IMG/VR virus record: IMGVR_UViG_3300031575_000002 | Coordinates: 1 to 26,900 of that record | Origin: a virus | Strand: one strand, 5' to 3' | Length of the DNA stretch: 26,900 nucleotides | Shown here: piece after piece, positions 2,848-19,576 of the stretch | How the letters are laid out: every line of letters starts with the position of its first letter | Position numbering within the stretch: the first letter of the stretch is position 1 | Program-made: the position numbers and the translations under genes | Notes under the pieces: generated by a model | What the model was told of the DNA's origin: nothing | The model's database searches: none | Seen by the model: only the letters and a program-made list of their open reading frames with translations

Positions 2848-3083
2848 AATGCCTCCACATCCATATCTAACGCCTCGAAACAATTTTGACACAGACACTC
2901 ATTGCCATACATAAACACATCACTCTCTTTAGAAATTTCCCGTCCACAAAGTTCACAGCAATAACTTTCCCTATCATGCTCAGCCCAGTCCTTGTCCTCC
3001 CGTTCCTGTAGGGCGTTGTTCAGTCCTTGATGCGCCCAATAAGCCGAGATATTGTCATAATACTCATCCTCGATTAATGGCAT
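2844..3083 (-). CDS. Zinc-ribbon protein
   Basis: 79 residues. An acidic N-terminal half (many D/E, tryptophan and tyrosine) is followed by a clear four-cysteine ribbon: CELCG at about 43-47 and CLCQNCF at about 64-70, separated by a strand-loop stretch. Such small ribbons bind one zinc ion and usually contact nucleic acid or protein. The start overlaps the stop of the 3083-3517 gene by one base, and its stop overlaps the next start, so it is coupled on both sides in the leftward operon. Specific role unknown. Confidence 0.6.
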   Translation of the reverse strand: MPLIEDEYYDNISAYWAHQGLNNALQEREDKDWAEHDRESYCCELCGREISKESDVFMYGNECLCQNCFEALDMDVEAL

Positions 3084-4011: not shown

Positions 4012-4635
4012 TTACAGTTTTCTGATGACTCGCACAACCTTACCGATAATCTGGATCTCTGATTGATGGTATATTTCGGGATAATATTTAAAGTTACAGG
4101 AACATAATATAATCTTATTGTCAGTTTTCCGTATTTTCTTTAAAAGTGCTTCTGCATGCTCACAACCGTGAGAGAATATTGCAACTGCATAAATACCCTT
4201 TTCATTTATATTGTTAATTGACGGTTCGATTAAAACATAGTCCCCGGGATAAATCCCTTCACCTATCATACTATCACCAATAACCTTTAATAGTAATAGA
4301 TTAGGATCTTTCGGCAGTATCTCTTTAATATTGATTATTCGTTTAATGTTTTCGGAGGCAAAGATTGGAGTCCCTGCTGATATTTCAGAGAGATAAGAAT
4401 ATTGGATTGTTTCCGATTTATCCTCGAACAACCTACTTGGTAAAATTTCTAAGACTTTGCAAATTTTATTAATTTTTGTTGATGGGATTCCCTTTCCCTT
4501 TTCCCATCCTTGAACAGTTGACCAATGCACATTTAACTTCTCACCCATTTCTTTGAGAGTTAACCCCTTTAATTTCCTTGCAATCCTTATTCTTTCACCT
4601 ATTTTAATATCGGATAATTTCCTCTTTTTCATCAT
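4012..4635 (-). CDS. LexA/CI-like autocleavable phage repressor (HTH plus S24 peptidase)
   Basis: 207 residues. Residues 11-65 are a Cro/C1-type helix-turn-helix (IGERIRIARKLKGLTLKEMG, then VHWSTVQGWEKG). The C-terminal half is an S24/LexA-type domain with a candidate Ala87-Gly88 cleavage site in SAGTP, nucleophile Ser122 in GDSM, the YPGDYVLIE strand (129-137), and a candidate general-base lysine at 166 or 167 in ALLKKI. In known phages such repressors hold the lysogenic state and cut themselves with RecA help after DNA damage. The start is ATG 4635 (or 4632) with GGGGC upstream. It is the only leftward gene here with its own promoter region, and dyads at 3864-3899 and 4663-4679 are its probable binding sites. 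It marks this phage as temperate and probably SOS-inducible. Confidence 0.9.
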   Translation of the reverse strand: MMKKRKLSDIKIGERIRIARKLKGLTLKEMGEKLNVHWSTVQGWEKGKGIPSTKINKICKVLEILPSRLFEDKSETIQYSYLSEISAGTPIFASENIKRIINIKEILPKDPNLLLLKVIGDSMIGEGIYPGDYVLIEPSINNINEKGIYAVAIFSHGCEHAEALLKKIRKTDNKIILCSCNFKYYPEIYHQSEIQIIGKVVRVIRKL

Positions 4636-5303: not shown

Positions 5304-6170
5304 ATGGGAAGACCAATTAAAAATACAGTAGATTACTTTCCACATAGTTGTAACCATAAAAAAACAATTTTTATATTGGAGCAACAGTACGGGAATGATG
5401 GTTATGCTTTTTGGTTTAAATTATTAGAATTATTAGGGTCAACAGATAAGCATTTTATTGATTGTAATAATAAGAGTAACTGGAGGTTTCTACAGGCAAA
5501 AACTCACCTCAGCGAAGAAAAATGTGTAGAAATGTTAAATCTGTTGGTTGAATTAGACGCAATTGATAAAAATTTATGGGATAAAAAGATAATCTGGTGT
5601 CAGAACTTTGTTGACAATATTACCGATGTTTATAGGAATCGGCGTGTAGAAACTCCAACTAAACCTCTTTTCTACAAACATAAACTCAAACAAGCTGATG
5701 TTTCTACAAACATAAAGTCACAAAGTAAAGTAAAGGAAAGTAAAGTAAATAAAAGTAAAGAAATTTATATTGTTTTAAGTAAAAAGTTAGGAGATTTAAT
5801 TTTAAAAAGGAAGCCTGATTTTAAGATAATAAAAAAGCAGGAGAAAAAAAATTATATAGATTGGGCAGATAATATTAGATTAATGGTTGAAAGAGATAAT
5901 AGGAAAATAGAAAAAATAAAGGAAGTGATTGAATGGTGCCAGGAAGATGATTTTTGGAAAAATAACATTTTATCAACCCAAAAACTTAGAAGCCAATTTG
6001 ATAAGTTAGAAATTAAAATAAAAACAGATCAGCCACAGGAAAACCTTACCCCAGGATATTGGGAACCCCCAGCTGACGAAGAAGAAGCTGAATTTAACCC
6101 TGAGAAGATACGAGCATTACGAAAAAATATGGGAAAAATAGGGAAACCAAACAACAATGACCTCGCATAA
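5304..6170 (+). CDS. Phage replication initiator, Lin1244/Lin1753 (DUF4373) type, DnaD-like
   Basis: 288 residues, good site GGAGGG before ATG. Residues 8-110 match the winged-helix N-terminal domain of the Lin1244/Lin1753 family: DYFPHSCNHKKTIFILEQQY at 10-29, the phrase DGYAFWFKLLELL, then LQAKTHLSEEKC and a final W-x-x-K strand. Residues 125-155 are a lysine/serine linker (SKVKESKVNKSKE) coded by repetitive DNA. The C-terminal part (about 180-240) carries the WADNIRLMVERDNR and EWCQEDDFWKNNILS pattern typical of phage replication proteins. Such proteins bind the phage origin and help load the host helicase; that role is inferred. Repeats inside the gene make it a candidate site of the origin. 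It lies between two structured terminator-like elements. Confidence 0.75.
   Translation: MGRPIKNTVDYFPHSCNHKKTIFILEQQYGNDGYAFWFKLLELLGSTDKHFIDCNNKSNWRFLQAKTHLSEEKCVEMLNLLVELDAIDKNLWDKKIIWCQNFVDNITDVYRNRRVETPTKPLFYKHKLKQADVSTNIKSQSKVKESKVNKSKEIYIVLSKKLGDLILKRKPDFKIIKKQEKKNYIDWADNIRLMVERDNRKIEKIKEVIEWCQEDDFWKNNILSTQKLRSQFDKLEIKIKTDQPQENLTPGYWEPPADEEEAEFNPEKIRALRKNMGKIGKPNNNDLA
5669..5716. repeat. Iteron-like direct repeats inside the replication gene
   Basis: TTTCTACAAACATAAA occurs twice, at 5669-5684 and 5701-5716, with starts 32 bases (about three helical turns) apart. The core also occurs as TTTCTACA at 5487-5494, and inverted as GTAGAAA at 5646-5652. Origin iterons inside the initiator gene are known from lambda and many siphophages, hence the origin interpretation. 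Confidence 0.5.
5717..5762. repeat. AAAGTAAAG low-complexity tract following the iterons
   Basis: A 46-base run made of AAAGTAAAG-like units, coding for the lysine/serine linker. It is followed by very AT-rich DNA up to about 5840. It could be the unwinding region of an origin, or simply the coding sequence of a charged linker. Confidence 0.45.
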
Positions 6171-6907: not shown

Positions 6908-7053
6908 AAGACATTGGTAATCTTTTCATAAAATTACTTATAGACTTAATGGTTGTACCAATGGCGTTCCTAAAATGGTATTGCGTCCATAAGGGAATCG
7001 GCAACGAAAGGGAACGAAATCCAGATGAAATGGTCTATGACCCATTGGTGTGA
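6904..7053 (+). CDS. Micro membrane-associated protein (49 aa)
   Basis: 49 residues. MKDIGN, then a hydrophobic helix (LFIKLLIDLMVVPMAFLKWY, residues 7-26), a single cysteine, and a charged C-terminal tail ending DEMVYDPLV. Coupled to the gene before it by ATGA. The helix contains a lysine and an aspartate, so it could lie along the membrane surface rather than cross it. No family recognised. Confidence 0.5.
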   Translation: MKDIGNLFIKLLIDLMVVPMAFLKWYCVHKGIGNERERNPDEMVYDPLV

Positions 7054-7065
7054 AATGGAGGGCAA

Positions 7066-7155
7066 ATGGTAGGTTGTATTATTGTAGCCGTATTAGGTTT
7101 ATTTTATTTTGGTATGCTTTTTTCATATAATTGGATAACAAAGGAGGATCGATGA
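7066..7155 (+). CDS. Micro membrane protein (29 aa)
   Basis: Only 29 residues. GGAGGG lies a few bases before ATG 7066. A hydrophobic stretch VGCIIVAVLGLFYFGMLF fills residues 2-19, followed by a short polar tail. The stop overlaps the next start (ATGA). Its size leaves real doubt, but the good ribosome binding site and coupling support it. Confidence 0.45.
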   Translation: MVGCIIVAVLGLFYFGMLFSYNWITKEDR

Positions 7156-7373
7156 CCATATTATGGATTATTCTGTTTAGTTGTGTGGGATTAATTATTG
7201 GGGGCTTATTGGGAACGTCCAAAAGGGCAGATCTTGTGAATGAGGTGAGGATATTGAGGATTAAACTCTTTAAGGCGGAGGAAGATATATCCGAATGCAA
7301 GCGACACAATGTAAAATTGGCAAACGCAAGAGAAAATATGTCCAATATGCAGAGCGGGAAATTCTTGACCTGA
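7152..7373 (+). CDS. Membrane-anchored short coiled-coil protein
   Basis: 73 residues from ATG 7152, which has AAGGAGG five bases upstream and overlaps the previous stop. Residues 2-21 are a transmembrane helix (TILWIILFSCVGLIIGGLL), then a basic stretch and a heptad-like helix (LVNEVRILRIKLFKAEEDI). Topology is probably N-out with a cytoplasmic coiled coil. It is the fourth consecutive tiny membrane protein in this cluster. The last 79 bases are overlapped out of frame by the next gene. Confidence 0.5.
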   Translation: MTILWIILFSCVGLIIGGLLGTSKRADLVNEVRILRIKLFKAEEDISECKRHNVKLANARENMSNMQSGKFLT

Positions 7374-7528
7374 TTGAGTTAAATATAGGAACAAGTTTAA
7401 ATTTATCAAAATTATCAAGGGGACAGATAATTAGTCTAAGGGAAATTGCTAAAAGAGGGGCTAAATGGAGGAATAAAATGAAGAAGAGTGCGAAAGAATT
7501 GGGTATCGAAATAGAGGAGGGGTTATGA
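7295..7528 (+). CDS. Hypothetical basic early protein
   Basis: 77 residues from ATG 7295. The first 26 codons lie out of frame inside the previous gene; no later start with a good ribosome binding site is seen, and GGAGGA lies about 12 bases before this one, so the true start may be different. Lysine/arginine rich (KRKRK, KRGAKWRNKMKK) and mainly helical. No family recognised. The stop overlaps the next start (ATGA). Confidence 0.4.
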   Translation: MQATQCKIGKRKRKYVQYAEREILDLIELNIGTSLNLSKLSRGQIISLREIAKRGAKWRNKMKKSAKELGIEIEEGL

Positions 7529-7734
7529 TACCATCAAGAAGAGTTAGAAAGTGTATAGAAAAAATAGAACGATTCAATGAACAGGAAGGCTGGCTTGCGG
7601 CTAAGGATTCAAGGCTATATGATTCCTGGCTGGCTTTTCAAGGGGCATTTTATAGAATTTATGCTTTTCCCCCAAGGAAGCCGATAATCTATAAACTACT
7701 TAAGAAGAATGAGCCACCACCCAGTAACGCTTAA
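7525..7734 (+). CDS. Hypothetical early protein
   Basis: 69 residues with a GAGGAGGGGTT site before ATG 7525. A basic N-terminal helix (RRVRKCIEKIERFNEQ) is followed by a tryptophan/aromatic segment (GWLAAKDSRLYDSWLAF) and a proline-rich tail. No known motif. Its last 26 bases overlap the next small gene. Confidence 0.45.
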   Translation: MIPSRRVRKCIEKIERFNEQEGWLAAKDSRLYDSWLAFQGAFYRIYAFPPRKPIIYKLLKKNEPPPSNA

Positions 7735-7888
7735 GCGCAACAAAGACATCAAGAGGGATTTTAAGGAGATGTATAGAGATTATAAAAACGGTAATATCTA
7801 TGTCGAGAATATCCTTGAAACTTTATCGGACAAATATCAGCTTTCAGTCAAAACTATCAAGAAAATCATCTATCCCATAAGTAACTAA
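7709..7888 (+). CDS. Small HTH-type DNA-binding protein (59 aa)
   Basis: 59 residues, easily missed by length. After a basic N-terminus (LKRNKDIKRDFKEMY), residues 33-55 read as a helix-turn-helix: VENILETLSDKYQLSVKTIK followed by KIIY, the recognition helix being LSVKTIKKII. Small proteins of this pattern (RNK.I...F..L...... .... LA.KY.LS..TI..I) are common next to phage terminase genes. It starts inside the end of the previous gene and is the last gene before the repeat array and small terminase, so a regulatory role in late expression or packaging is possible. Confidence 0.6.
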   Translation: MSHHPVTLKRNKDIKRDFKEMYRDYKNGNIYVENILETLSDKYQLSVKTIKKIIYPISN

Positions 7889-7902
7889 CAATCAATAACA
7901 AC

Positions 7903-7951
7903 GCCTTAAAAGAGCCTTATTACCGCCTTGTTTGAGCCTTGTTTGGGCTTT
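7903..7951 (+). repeat. 11-bp phased repeats upstream of the small terminase gene (candidate packaging site)
   Basis: GCCTT begins at 7903, 7914, 7925 and 7936, exactly 11 bases apart, with a degenerate fifth unit GCTTT at 7947. Units: GCCTTAAAAGA, GCCTTATTACC, GCCTTGTTTGA, GCCTTGTTTGG. The array lies in the 94-base gap before terS, is not coding, and repeats on one face of the helix, as terminase-binding sites (pac or cosB) often do. It could alternatively bind a late-gene regulator. Confidence 0.6.
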
Positions 7952-7982
7952 CGGACTCAGGAAGGTATATTTATTTTAGGTT

Positions 7983-8360
7983 ATGGCTAAACGCGGACCC
8001 AAACCAATCAAGATTAAATGGAAGGAGTTCGACAAACTTTGCGCAATGCAATGCACTCTCTCTGAAATTGCTGCGTGGTTTGAATGTAGTGAGGATACAA
8101 TTGAGCGGAGAGTGAAAAAATCCAAGAAGATGAAATTTGCGGATTATTATGCGCAAAAGAAGGAAAAGGGGTTTGTCGCGCTAAGGCGTCTTCAATGGCA
8201 AAAGGCAAAGAAAGGAAGTAATATAATGCTTATCTGGTTAGGGAAGCAATGGCTTGACCAACGAGATAAAAAAGACATTGAACATTCAGGTTATATTAAT
8301 GACCACGAGAAGGTTGTGGTAGAGGAAGTTGTAGTGAATCAGCAAGACGAGAAAGGATAA
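7983..8360 (+). CDS. terS: Terminase small subunit
   Basis: 125 residues. Residues 1-12 are basic (AKRGPKPIKI). Residues 25-47 form the helix-turn-helix (TLSEIAAWFECSEDTIERRV) typical of terminase small subunits, which bind the packaging site on concatemeric phage DNA and hand it to the large subunit. The middle (RRLQWQKAKKGSNIMLIWLG, then KQWLDQRD) matches the conserved oligomerisation segment in which a helix ends in WLGKQ.LGQ.D. The tail is acidic and valine rich, probably contacting the large subunit. The start lacks a strong ribosome binding site. The stop TAATG overlaps the large terminase start. Confidence 0.85.
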   Translation: MAKRGPKPIKIKWKEFDKLCAMQCTLSEIAAWFECSEDTIERRVKKSKKMKFADYYAQKKEKGFVALRRLQWQKAKKGSNIMLIWLGKQWLDQRDKKDIEHSGYINDHEKVVVEEVVVNQQDEKG

Positions 8361-9628
8361 TGTGGATAATCTTAATCCTGTTGGCATTTTCAATGGCTAA
8401 AGAATTAAGACTGACAATACCCTCAACCTTCAAGCCTTTACTGACTAATCAATACAGATATTTAAATCTTGTCGGTGGAAAGGGTTCGGGCAAGAGTGAA
8501 TTTGTAGCCCGGAAGATGTTATATCGTTGTTGGGTAGAGGGCAATCATAAATTCCTTGTCCTCAGGAAAGTGAGGGCAACTACATACGATTCGGTTATTG
8601 AAGTTTGGCAAAAAATGTTAGATGAGCAGAAGGTTAAATATAGTTATAGAAAATTTGATAGGACAATCTCATTTAGAAATTCAAACAGGCAGAAAAATAT
8701 TATCAAGTTCGATGGGCTTGATGATCCCGAGAAGATTGAATCAATTAAGGGAATCACCGGGATCCACATGGAGGAGTTGACTGAGTTTACCTCTAAGGAT
8801 TTTAGAATTGTTGATTTAGCGTTAAGAGAACAATTATCAGATTACGAGCAGATTATAGGGACATATAACCCCGACGAGGGCGAAGCCGAATGGATCAAGA
8901 ATAAATTCTTCTTAAATGATAAGATAAAGACTGGTCCGGGGAAGATGGAAGATTCATACATCCACCACTCTACAATTGCGGATAATCCCATTGCAGATAT
9001 AAGAAATTCATATAGGAGAATCTTAGACCGTCTTGAAGATGAGGTTTATATCTCAATTTACAAGCATGGTCAATGGGCTGTTCCCAAAGAGAAAATTTAT
9101 AACTGGGATATAGTCGATCTTCCCGACATTAAATTTGATGAAATATTTTATGGTGGGGATTTTGGATACAGTATTAACCCCGCTGCGTTTATTAAAATAT
9201 ACCACAAAGCGAACGAATATTGGGTTAAGGAACTAATTTACGAGACTGGGCTGACTAACATTGCATTAGGGGAGAAAATCAAGGGACTAAAAGAGGTTAA
9301 TCTTCTTGACCCGCAGTATTGGGATTCAGCAGAGCCTAAATCAATTCAAGAATTGTATGAGATGGGGATAAATGCTTTGCCATCAGATAAGGGACCCGAT
9401 TCGGTTAAGCATGGGATTGACTTCTTAAAAGAGCAAATAATTCACATTGTTAGCGGGTCTGAAAACATAAAAAAAGAACGCAATAAATATAAAATGAGGC
9501 AGGATAAGAACGGGAACATACTCAACAAACCAGTTGAATATATGAACCATGCTATGGATGCAATTAGATATGGGATTTGCACACACTCCCATAATAATGT
9601 AGAACCTTTTGTAATAATCGGAGGATAA
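8360..9628 (+). CDS. terL: Terminase large subunit (PBSX/Terminase_3 type)
   Basis: 422 residues, normal for this class. ATPase: Walker A GGKGSGKS at 39-46, Walker B-like GIHMEELTEF at 134-143 with the catalytic Glu pair, and a GTYNP coupling motif at 167-171. Nuclease (RNase H-like): Asp267 in GGDFGY, Asp322 in WDSAEP, and Asp400 in HAMDAIRYG, the usual acidic triad. The protein translocates DNA into the prohead and cuts it. The start at 8360 overlaps the terS stop, but the first 11 residues are oddly hydrophobic; Met12 (8393) would give the more usual N-terminus, though it lacks a ribosome binding site. Followed immediately by the portal gene. Confidence 0.93.
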   Translation: MWIILILLAFSMAKELRLTIPSTFKPLLTNQYRYLNLVGGKGSGKSEFVARKMLYRCWVEGNHKFLVLRKVRATTYDSVIEVWQKMLDEQKVKYSYRKFDRTISFRNSNRQKNIIKFDGLDDPEKIESIKGITGIHMEELTEFTSKDFRIVDLALREQLSDYEQIIGTYNPDEGEAEWIKNKFFLNDKIKTGPGKMEDSYIHHSTIADNPIADIRNSYRRILDRLEDEVYISIYKHGQWAVPKEKIYNWDIVDLPDIKFDEIFYGGDFGYSINPAAFIKIYHKANEYWVKELIYETGLTNIALGEKIKGLKEVNLLDPQYWDSAEPKSIQELYEMGINALPSDKGPDSVKHGIDFLKEQIIHIVSGSENIKKERNKYKMRQDKNGNILNKPVEYMNHAMDAIRYGICTHSHNNVEPFVIIGG

Positions 9629-17889: not shown

Positions 17890-19576
17890 TAATATCCTGT
17901 TAGAAATAAGAGCCGATATAAAAGACGTAAAGGCTAAGCTCAAGCAAGTAGATTCTGATTTTAAGGGTGCATCTAAGAATGTCGAGGCGCAAACTCAGCG
18001 AATGAATTCTGGTTTTAGTAATCTAAAAAGAATGATTGCTGGGGCCTTCACGGTTGCCATATTGTATAAATTCCAACAGGGATTAAAGGACTGTGTTAAG
18101 GCGGCACTTGAGCAAGAGACTGCAACCATGTCCTTGCGTTCGATTATGACCAATCTAAAACTGGCAACCGATGACGAGATTGATTCCCTCATTAAATATT
18201 CGGAACAATTACAAAAGACAACTACCTTCGGAGATGAGCAAACGCAAGCTGCAATGGCAATGCTTGGGACTTTCCGATTGAATGCCGACCAGATGAGAAT
18301 AGCAATTCCAAGGTTAATGGATATGTCGGCTGCAATCTCAATGATGGAGGGAAGGGAAGTTAAACTTGTTGAAAGTGCAAAGTTGTTTGGTAAGGCATTG
18401 ATTGGACAAGTCGGGCAATTGTCAAGATATGGTGTTGTGGTAGATAAGGCTGCAATAGAATCCGATAGGTTCGGTGGAATTGTAAAATCTTTAGACGATA
18501 ACTTCAAAGGGCAAGCTAAGACATTGGCTGAGACCAAACAAGGAGGTTTGACTCAATTTGGTAACGCAATGGGAGACCTGAAGGAAGCAATTGGAGACGC
18601 ATTTATTCCCGCTTTGCTGAGTATTGCAGACGCATTAAAACCAATCATCGAGGGGTTTGATAAAACGATTGGTAGAATCGATGAGGTTACAAACGCCTTT
18701 ATCAAACTCGATGAGGCTCAAAAAGGGATTAATGCTCCAACAATGCTAATATTCTTGAAGGAAAGAATAGCTGGGTTAAAGGAAGAGAGAGATGCATTAG
18801 AATCACAGACAGATAGATTGGGTATGAATAAGATAAAAATAGATGAACTCCAAAGCTCCATAGAAACATTACAAGGACAATACGATAAATTGAAGGCAGC
18901 GGGTAAGGATATTAAATATGCTCCAACGGATAAAGAGATTAAGAAGATAAAAGAGACTAAAGAAGCAGTTGAAAAAGTTGCACCTCCATTTGATTATTGG
19001 GTGGAAATAACAGAGCAATTACATACTGCAAATGAAGCTATTATACTTGACCTGATGGAAATAAATCCAGAAATAAAAACACAAAGCGATTTATTAAAAG
19101 ATTTAACTTTATCTCAAGATTTAGCAGCAGAATCAGCAGAAGATTGGATAAATTCCTATCAAGACGCTAAAAAAGTTAATGAACAAATAAAACAACAAAC
19201 CGCTAATATGCAATTAGCTACAGAAGCTGGTCAAATAATGGGTAATGTATTAGCCGATGTTTTTAGTGATTCAGCAGACAAAGCCTATAATTTGGGGGAT
19301 GCAATACAAGATATATTGCTTGCCCTTGCTCAATTTGCAGCTATGAGTTATCTGCCAGCGCCATTCGGTGGGATTGTATCAGGTTTTGCTGGAGGTTTTT
19401 TGGGAGCGCCAGCACCTGGACCAGTCCAACAACCCGCATATTCACAACAGGCTATTACTATTGGGCAAATTAAAGAGGCTCAGACTTTAAGTAAACCCCT
19501 ATACGGAAGAAGATTTTTAGAAGAAAGTGCAATGCAAAACCTTAATATCGAAAGCATTAGCACTTGGGAGTTATAA
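17879..19576 (+). CDS. Tail tape measure protein
   Basis: 565 residues with GAGGA upstream. Long helical protein: N-terminal basic coil (DIKDVKAKLKQVDSDFKGAS), a first helical bundle with TKFGDEQ-like phrase TTTFGDEQTQAAMAMLGTF (about 115-133), FGKALIGQVGQLSRYGV, and EAIGDAFIPALLSIADALKP, familiar from tape measures. A further coiled coil spans about 290-345. A hydrophobic glycine-rich segment near 485-515 (LAQFAAMSYLPAPFGGIV) could act in membrane penetration. At 1.5 angstrom per residue it suggests a tail near 85 nm. The end (after 520) is polar and helical. It follows the chaperone frameshift locus as expected. Confidence 0.85.
   Translation: MPGDNILLEIRADIKDVKAKLKQVDSDFKGASKNVEAQTQRMNSGFSNLKRMIAGAFTVAILYKFQQGLKDCVKAALEQETATMSLRSIMTNLKLATDDEIDSLIKYSEQLQKTTTFGDEQTQAAMAMLGTFRLNADQMRIAIPRLMDMSAAISMMEGREVKLVESAKLFGKALIGQVGQLSRYGVVVDKAAIESDRFGGIVKSLDDNFKGQAKTLAETKQGGLTQFGNAMGDLKEAIGDAFIPALLSIADALKPIIEGFDKTIGRIDEVTNAFIKLDEAQKGINAPTMLIFLKERIAGLKEERDALESQTDRLGMNKIKIDELQSSIETLQGQYDKLKAAGKDIKYAPTDKEIKKIKETKEAVEKVAPPFDYWVEITEQLHTANEAIILDLMEINPEIKTQSDLLKDLTLSQDLAAESAEDWINSYQDAKKVNEQIKQQTANMQLATEAGQIMGNVLADVFSDSADKAYNLGDAIQDILLALAQFAAMSYLPAPFGGIVSGFAGGFLGAPAPGPVQQPAYSQQAITIGQIKEAQTLSKPLYGRRFLEESAMQNLNIESISTWEL

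Follow-up and report, generated by a model that had tools for sequence, protein, structure and literature searches.

The stretch analysed here is the 26,900-base virus record IMGVR_UViG_3300031575_000002, taken from position 1 to 26,900 and referred to below as the window, and the element in question is a short array of direct repeats in front of terS, the gene of the small terminase subunit. The array occupies positions 7903-7951 on the + strand, within a 94-base-pair (bp) gap that separates the stop codon of a gene for a basic helix-turn-helix protein of 59 amino acids (7709..7888, +) from the ATG of terS at 7983, which follows after 31 bases. Exact GCCTT words start at 7903, 7914, 7925 and 7936, an 11-bp spacing on which three separate looks agree and which the first-pass annotation had described correctly at all four positions. 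The first five bases are invariant in the four units, namely GCCTTAAAAGA (7903..7913, +), GCCTTATTACC (7914..7924, +), GCCTTGTTTGA (7925..7935, +) and GCCTTGTTTGG (7936..7946, +), and the six spacer bases vary in most of them. The degenerate fifth unit that had been noted at 7947 is present as GCTTT (7947..7951, +), but it is not conserved, as three near-identical contigs read GCTTG there. On the downstream side, terS (7983..8360, +; helix-turn-helix; phrog_309, E = 0.00022) is followed by terL for the large terminase subunit (8360..9628, +; Terminase_3, E = 1.7e-30) and by the portal gene, so that the packaging and structural genes lie directly behind the array.

When the whole window was scanned for exact 5-mers that recur at equal intervals of 6-25 bp, the GCCTT array was the sole run of four or more copies, all other runs having three. 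In dinucleotide-preserving shuffles evaluated at spacings of 8-25 bp, a four-copy run arose by chance in 2 of 200 whole-window shuffles and in none of 20,000 when the 94-bp gap alone was shuffled. Period 11 also came out on top among periods 8-25 in an independent score that tolerates mismatches (0/300 shuffles as good), and the four GCCTT-N6-GCCTT pairs that the window contains at up to one mismatch all fall within the array. An RNA element in the gap was considered and rejected, as the gap folds no better than its shuffles (z = -0.61; 56/200 as good); no terminator-like site was found in 7000-9000, and neither an Rfam match nor a tRNA was found in the window.

A promoter is predicted immediately behind the repeats. 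Scored against the consensus promoter hexamers TTGACA and TATAAT, the TATATT at 7966..7971 (+) is the sole hexamer in the scanned interval 7889-7990 to match TATAAT in at least five of six positions (5/6), and 17 bp before it, overlapping the end of the array, lies a poor -35 hexamer (TTGGGC, 7943..7948, +; 3/6), as expected for a promoter that needs an activator. The position of the -10 hexamer would put the transcription start at 7978 (+), relative to which the four units extend from -75 to -32. Such a start, 5 nucleotides before the terS ATG, would give terS a transcript with a 5-nucleotide leader, possibly a near-leaderless one, which fits the lack of a Shine-Dalgarno motif before this gene in a window where GGAG or GAGG precedes the start in 25 of the 41 listed open reading frames. 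In the early region, between the gene of a CI-like repressor (4012-4635) and the next gene, inspection by eye found TTGACT, 16 bp and TATATT, that is, an identical -10 preceded by a good -35. The sequence at 7942-7973 also matches TTTG-N20-TATATTTA, which we take to be the promoter type of Bacteroidota; this match was noticed and set aside, since the pattern is loose enough to recur at three other places in the window and the starts of most genes are of the GGAG type.

The layout of the locus resembles that of the late promoter of Lactococcus phage TP901-1, where four imperfect direct repeats from -76 to -32 are reported as the binding site of the activator Alt (PMC13123087). In the TP901-1 record, a four-copy period of 11 bp scores best between alt and terS (1/300 shuffles, 220-bp stretch), with units starting at 2998, 3009, 3020 and 3031 and a -10 box, TATACT, at 3062; with +1 at 3074 these units span -76 to -33 and coincide with the published Alt site. 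From the start of the fourth unit to the -10, the distance is 31 bp in TP901-1 and 30 bp in the window, an agreement that is approximate, as the register of the units is arbitrary by a few bases. In both phages, four imperfect direct repeats with an 11-bp period are located between the gene of the activator (in the window, the proposed one) and terS and end at about -32 (counted in the window from the predicted start), and neither the TP901-1 promoter nor the predicted one of the window has a good -35. The two loci differ in the repeat sequence itself, in the position of terS, which lies more than 500 bp further on in TP901-1, and in the protein, as Alt has 140 amino acids and an isoelectric point (pI) of 6.3 and is not detectably homologous to the basic 59-amino-acid protein of the window. 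The resemblance is thus one of layout, by which the array would represent a new case, and homology to TP901-1 is not claimed. More generally, the late regulators (Ltr) are described in the same source as small basic proteins that are encoded directly upstream of their own promoter and in general bind four imperfect repeats, and the late promoter P23 of Staphylococcus phage phi13 is stated to require its repeat block (PMC13123087). The window shares with P23/Ltr a regulator gene (here a putative one) directly upstream, repeats before a TATA box (here a predicted -10) and late genes downstream.

The assignment of the 59-amino-acid protein as a late-gene activator is a proposal based on its open reading frame, on profile matches below threshold and on a structure model. 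The protein has a pI of 9.6, and its model, computed from the single sequence, has three helices (mean predicted local distance difference test score, pLDDT, of 83.7). Among the profiles, the Mor family PF08765 was matched with E = 0.0072 and 16.8 bits (gathering cut-off 24.9), over the C-terminal part of the profile alone (61-93 of 107), the CD3324 family NF040785 with E = 0.00023 and 21.2 bits (cut-off 65), and phrog_532, annotated as late transcriptional activator, with a sub-threshold E = 0.14. In a structural second look, the matches listed were mostly DNA-binding helix-turn-helix proteins, with TnpE as the best one (Z 6.8 over 55 residues at 3.9 Å) and with the Mu transposase Ibeta (Z 6.2), Mu C (Z 4.8) and Mor (Z 4.5) among the further ones; Z values of this size are often obtained with small helical models and indicate the type of fold, not the function, and those of C and Mor are similar to the values of many other helix-turn-helix entries. 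The likeness to the Mor/C activators of Mu consists of this weak profile match and of their appearance in the structural comparison, whereas the restriction to the C-terminal part of the Mor profile sets the protein apart. The sites of the Mu activators are imperfect dyads. Homologues of the protein were not found in viral contigs other than the near-identical ones of the window's own kind, and searches of phage records and PDB sequences returned nothing convincing.

Taken together, we favour, with a probability of about 0.6, the reading of the array as the operator of an activator-dependent late promoter, and in our analysis it is most likely a late-gene on-switch rather than a DNA-packaging signal. 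Because the layout reproduces the arrangement of late promoter and activator in TP901-1, the 59-amino-acid protein fits better as the ligand than TerS does; the first-pass annotation had listed the 7709-7888 protein as an alternative ligand. The protein would bind the four phased units, presumably as monomers, and, as the end of the array overlaps the poor -35, the bound proteins could recruit the host RNA polymerase to the -10 at 7966-7971. Transcription would then start near 7978 and read through terS, terL, the portal gene and the structural genes.

Several observations count against this interpretation. The promoter is a prediction, given that a -10-like hexamer would be met at one of three positions by chance in about 2.7% of cases, and a stricter promoter scan did not return the promoter with the -10 at 7966. 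The arrangement of four units of 11 bp is not universal among comparable phages: the phi13 repeats are 18 bp long (PMC13123087), and even in the Alt family period 11 was the best in just four of the eight phages tested (TP901-1, 1/300 shuffles; the divergent Alt phage 50902, 7/300; Bacchus, 45/300; Tuc2009, 126/300), with TP901-1 and 50902 alone being individually significant, while in 53802, bIL310, 28201 and LT996080 it was not the best. On the side of the protein, Mor and CD3324 are the best family matches and both are far under their cut-offs, Foldseek gave no match to the model at E ≤ 0.001, and a BLASTP comparison with Alt yielded E = 0.57 over 7 residues, which is not significant; moreover, the protein is shorter than Ltr proteins, which have about 130 amino acids. 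The conservation of the array is uninformative, because its sole carriers are contigs that match the window at 99.8-99.9% identity over 8-13 kb.

Arrays of this type also occur elsewhere, as a pattern-only scan of viral contigs returned 36 stretches with the four-unit pattern, most of them plain tandem repeats. Five of the stretches (L036, L038, L061, L063 and L070) belong to one other phage family with a distant TerL downstream. In these five and in L092, an array of 3 to 6 units precedes an unrelated terS, approximately 535-560 bp before TerL. The arrays of this second family are flanked by ATTACT/ATTACTTTC repeats, and the pattern looks as if it had been gained and lost, close relatives such as L095 being without it. 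The family comprises 22 loci, 19 of which were examined: six have at least three units, 10 have no array and three are too short for a decision. At first, this family had supported the idea that GCCTT arrays are generally linked to terminase genes, but the idea was rejected on these counts. TerL similarity was also seen for L067 and L051 of the pattern scan; the GCCTT words of L067 lie on the strand opposite to terL and within a plain tandem repeat.

The first-pass annotation had proposed that the array is a packaging initiation site (pac or cosB), where a ring of TerS would bind the phased GCCTT words beside its own gene and bring TerL to cut nearby. The array does adjoin terS, the TerL of the window is a Terminase_3 protein, the second family has its array upstream of terS as well, and direct repeats mark the mapped pac sites of 9g and SPP1, near or in the terminase small-subunit region; these sites differ in consisting of two 21-bp repeats in 9g and of boxes A-C in SPP1. 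A ligand role of TerS is, however, poorly compatible with its homologues L011, L012 and L013: they are 52-62% identical to the TerS of the window (60-67% over the matched part) and their helix-turn-helix is nearly unchanged, yet nowhere in their loci do two GCCTT words stand 11 bp apart. No TerS homologue was found in genome contigs. TerL relatives were drawn from both viral contigs and genome contigs. The profile of phased repeats around TerL, taken over 77 of 80 loci (L003, which is of the window's own kind, as well as L128 and L165, which have almost no upstream sequence, were dropped), has no peak upstream of TerL. These 77 loci and 79 of 80 further ones (L188, without upstream sequence, was dropped) entered a second phasing test, for which 132 had a mechanically assigned terS-like open reading frame with 160 bp upstream. 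The regions before terS were phased at P ≤ 0.05 in 10/132 cases versus 48/563 controls, i.e., without any excess, and had period 11 in 0/132 versus 4/563, although most of these relatives are just 30-40% identical in TerL, a distance at which a rapidly evolving operator, too, would be expected to be lost. The array is evidently dispensable in the second family, in which L095 lacks it despite a TerL that is 100% identical over 316 residues, and the DNA-binding domain of the SF6 TerS is reported to have no preference for box repeats (PMC4737164). The spacing is therefore not conserved where the earlier proposal had suggested to look for it, and we regard a packaging site read by a TerS ring as unsupported and rather unlikely.

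That TerS, or another regulator of phage or host such as the CI-like repressor, binds the array in order to repress or time the late operon appears improbable to us. The terminase of SPP1 has been reported to repress its own synthesis, and the TerS of the window carries a helix-turn-helix, albeit with weak matches; on the other hand, the window has no second array of such kind, and the close TerS homologues that have no array beside them again speak against TerS as the ligand. We assign similarly little weight to a neutral, minisatellite-like expansion without function, for which one could invoke the prevalence of plain tandem repeats in the pattern scan as well as the changing copy number and frequent absence of the array in the second family. 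A fresh expansion would not be expected to combine five invariant bases with spacers that differ in most units, and the position of the array is specific, with a helix-turn-helix gene on one side and, at the distance found in TP901-1, a -10-like box on the other. Lastly, a single 49-bp array could serve two roles, with the single-domain activator of 59 amino acids starting late transcription and TerS, made from the adjoining near-leaderless gene, then displacing it to start packaging there, so that late transcription would hand over to packaging at one site. The pac site of SPP1 is reported to overlap late promoters, which indicates that both roles could share a site, but we consider such a handover very improbable here.

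If the array is indeed the operator of a late promoter, the locus would provide a testable late-gene switch for an uncultured phage lineage, and the architecture of TP901-1, in which a block of four repeats spaced by one helical turn reaches up to the -35, would extend beyond lactococcal phages and to an unrelated and much smaller activator. Repeats before terS, on their own, would then be no evidence of a packaging site. A search of the literature by title or the start of the abstract found nothing concerning this phage or array. A further point for the late-promoter reading is that THSA-485A (L075), which among named phages has the TerL most similar to that of the window, has a gene of the RinA family two genes upstream of the one that precedes terL. 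Among genome contigs, the closest TerL (53% identity) comes from a Candidatus Aminicenantes assembly (L186), from which no host is assigned.

Further repeats were observed in passing. In L011, a 9-bp unit (AACAGCTCA and variants) occurs in seven copies at 99-170, upstream of its TerS homologue. In Marinitoga camini virus 2 (L078, 3251-3286), four TCGACA/TCGGCA words follow one another every 10 bp, some 300 bp upstream of the gene preceding terL; a terminator-like hairpin lies immediately before them and a tRNA-like sequence behind them. Within the window, an AAAGT/15-bp tandem repeat at 5722-5760 lies in the replication initiation gene (5304-6170), and these may be candidate origin repeats as in other O-like genes. 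The nucleotide identity of the window to contig IMGVR_UViG_3300031643_000030 (99.85%) ends at 18970, within the tape-measure gene. Overall, the tape-measure proteins of the window and of this contig share just 76% identity, and position 18970 looks like a recombination boundary.
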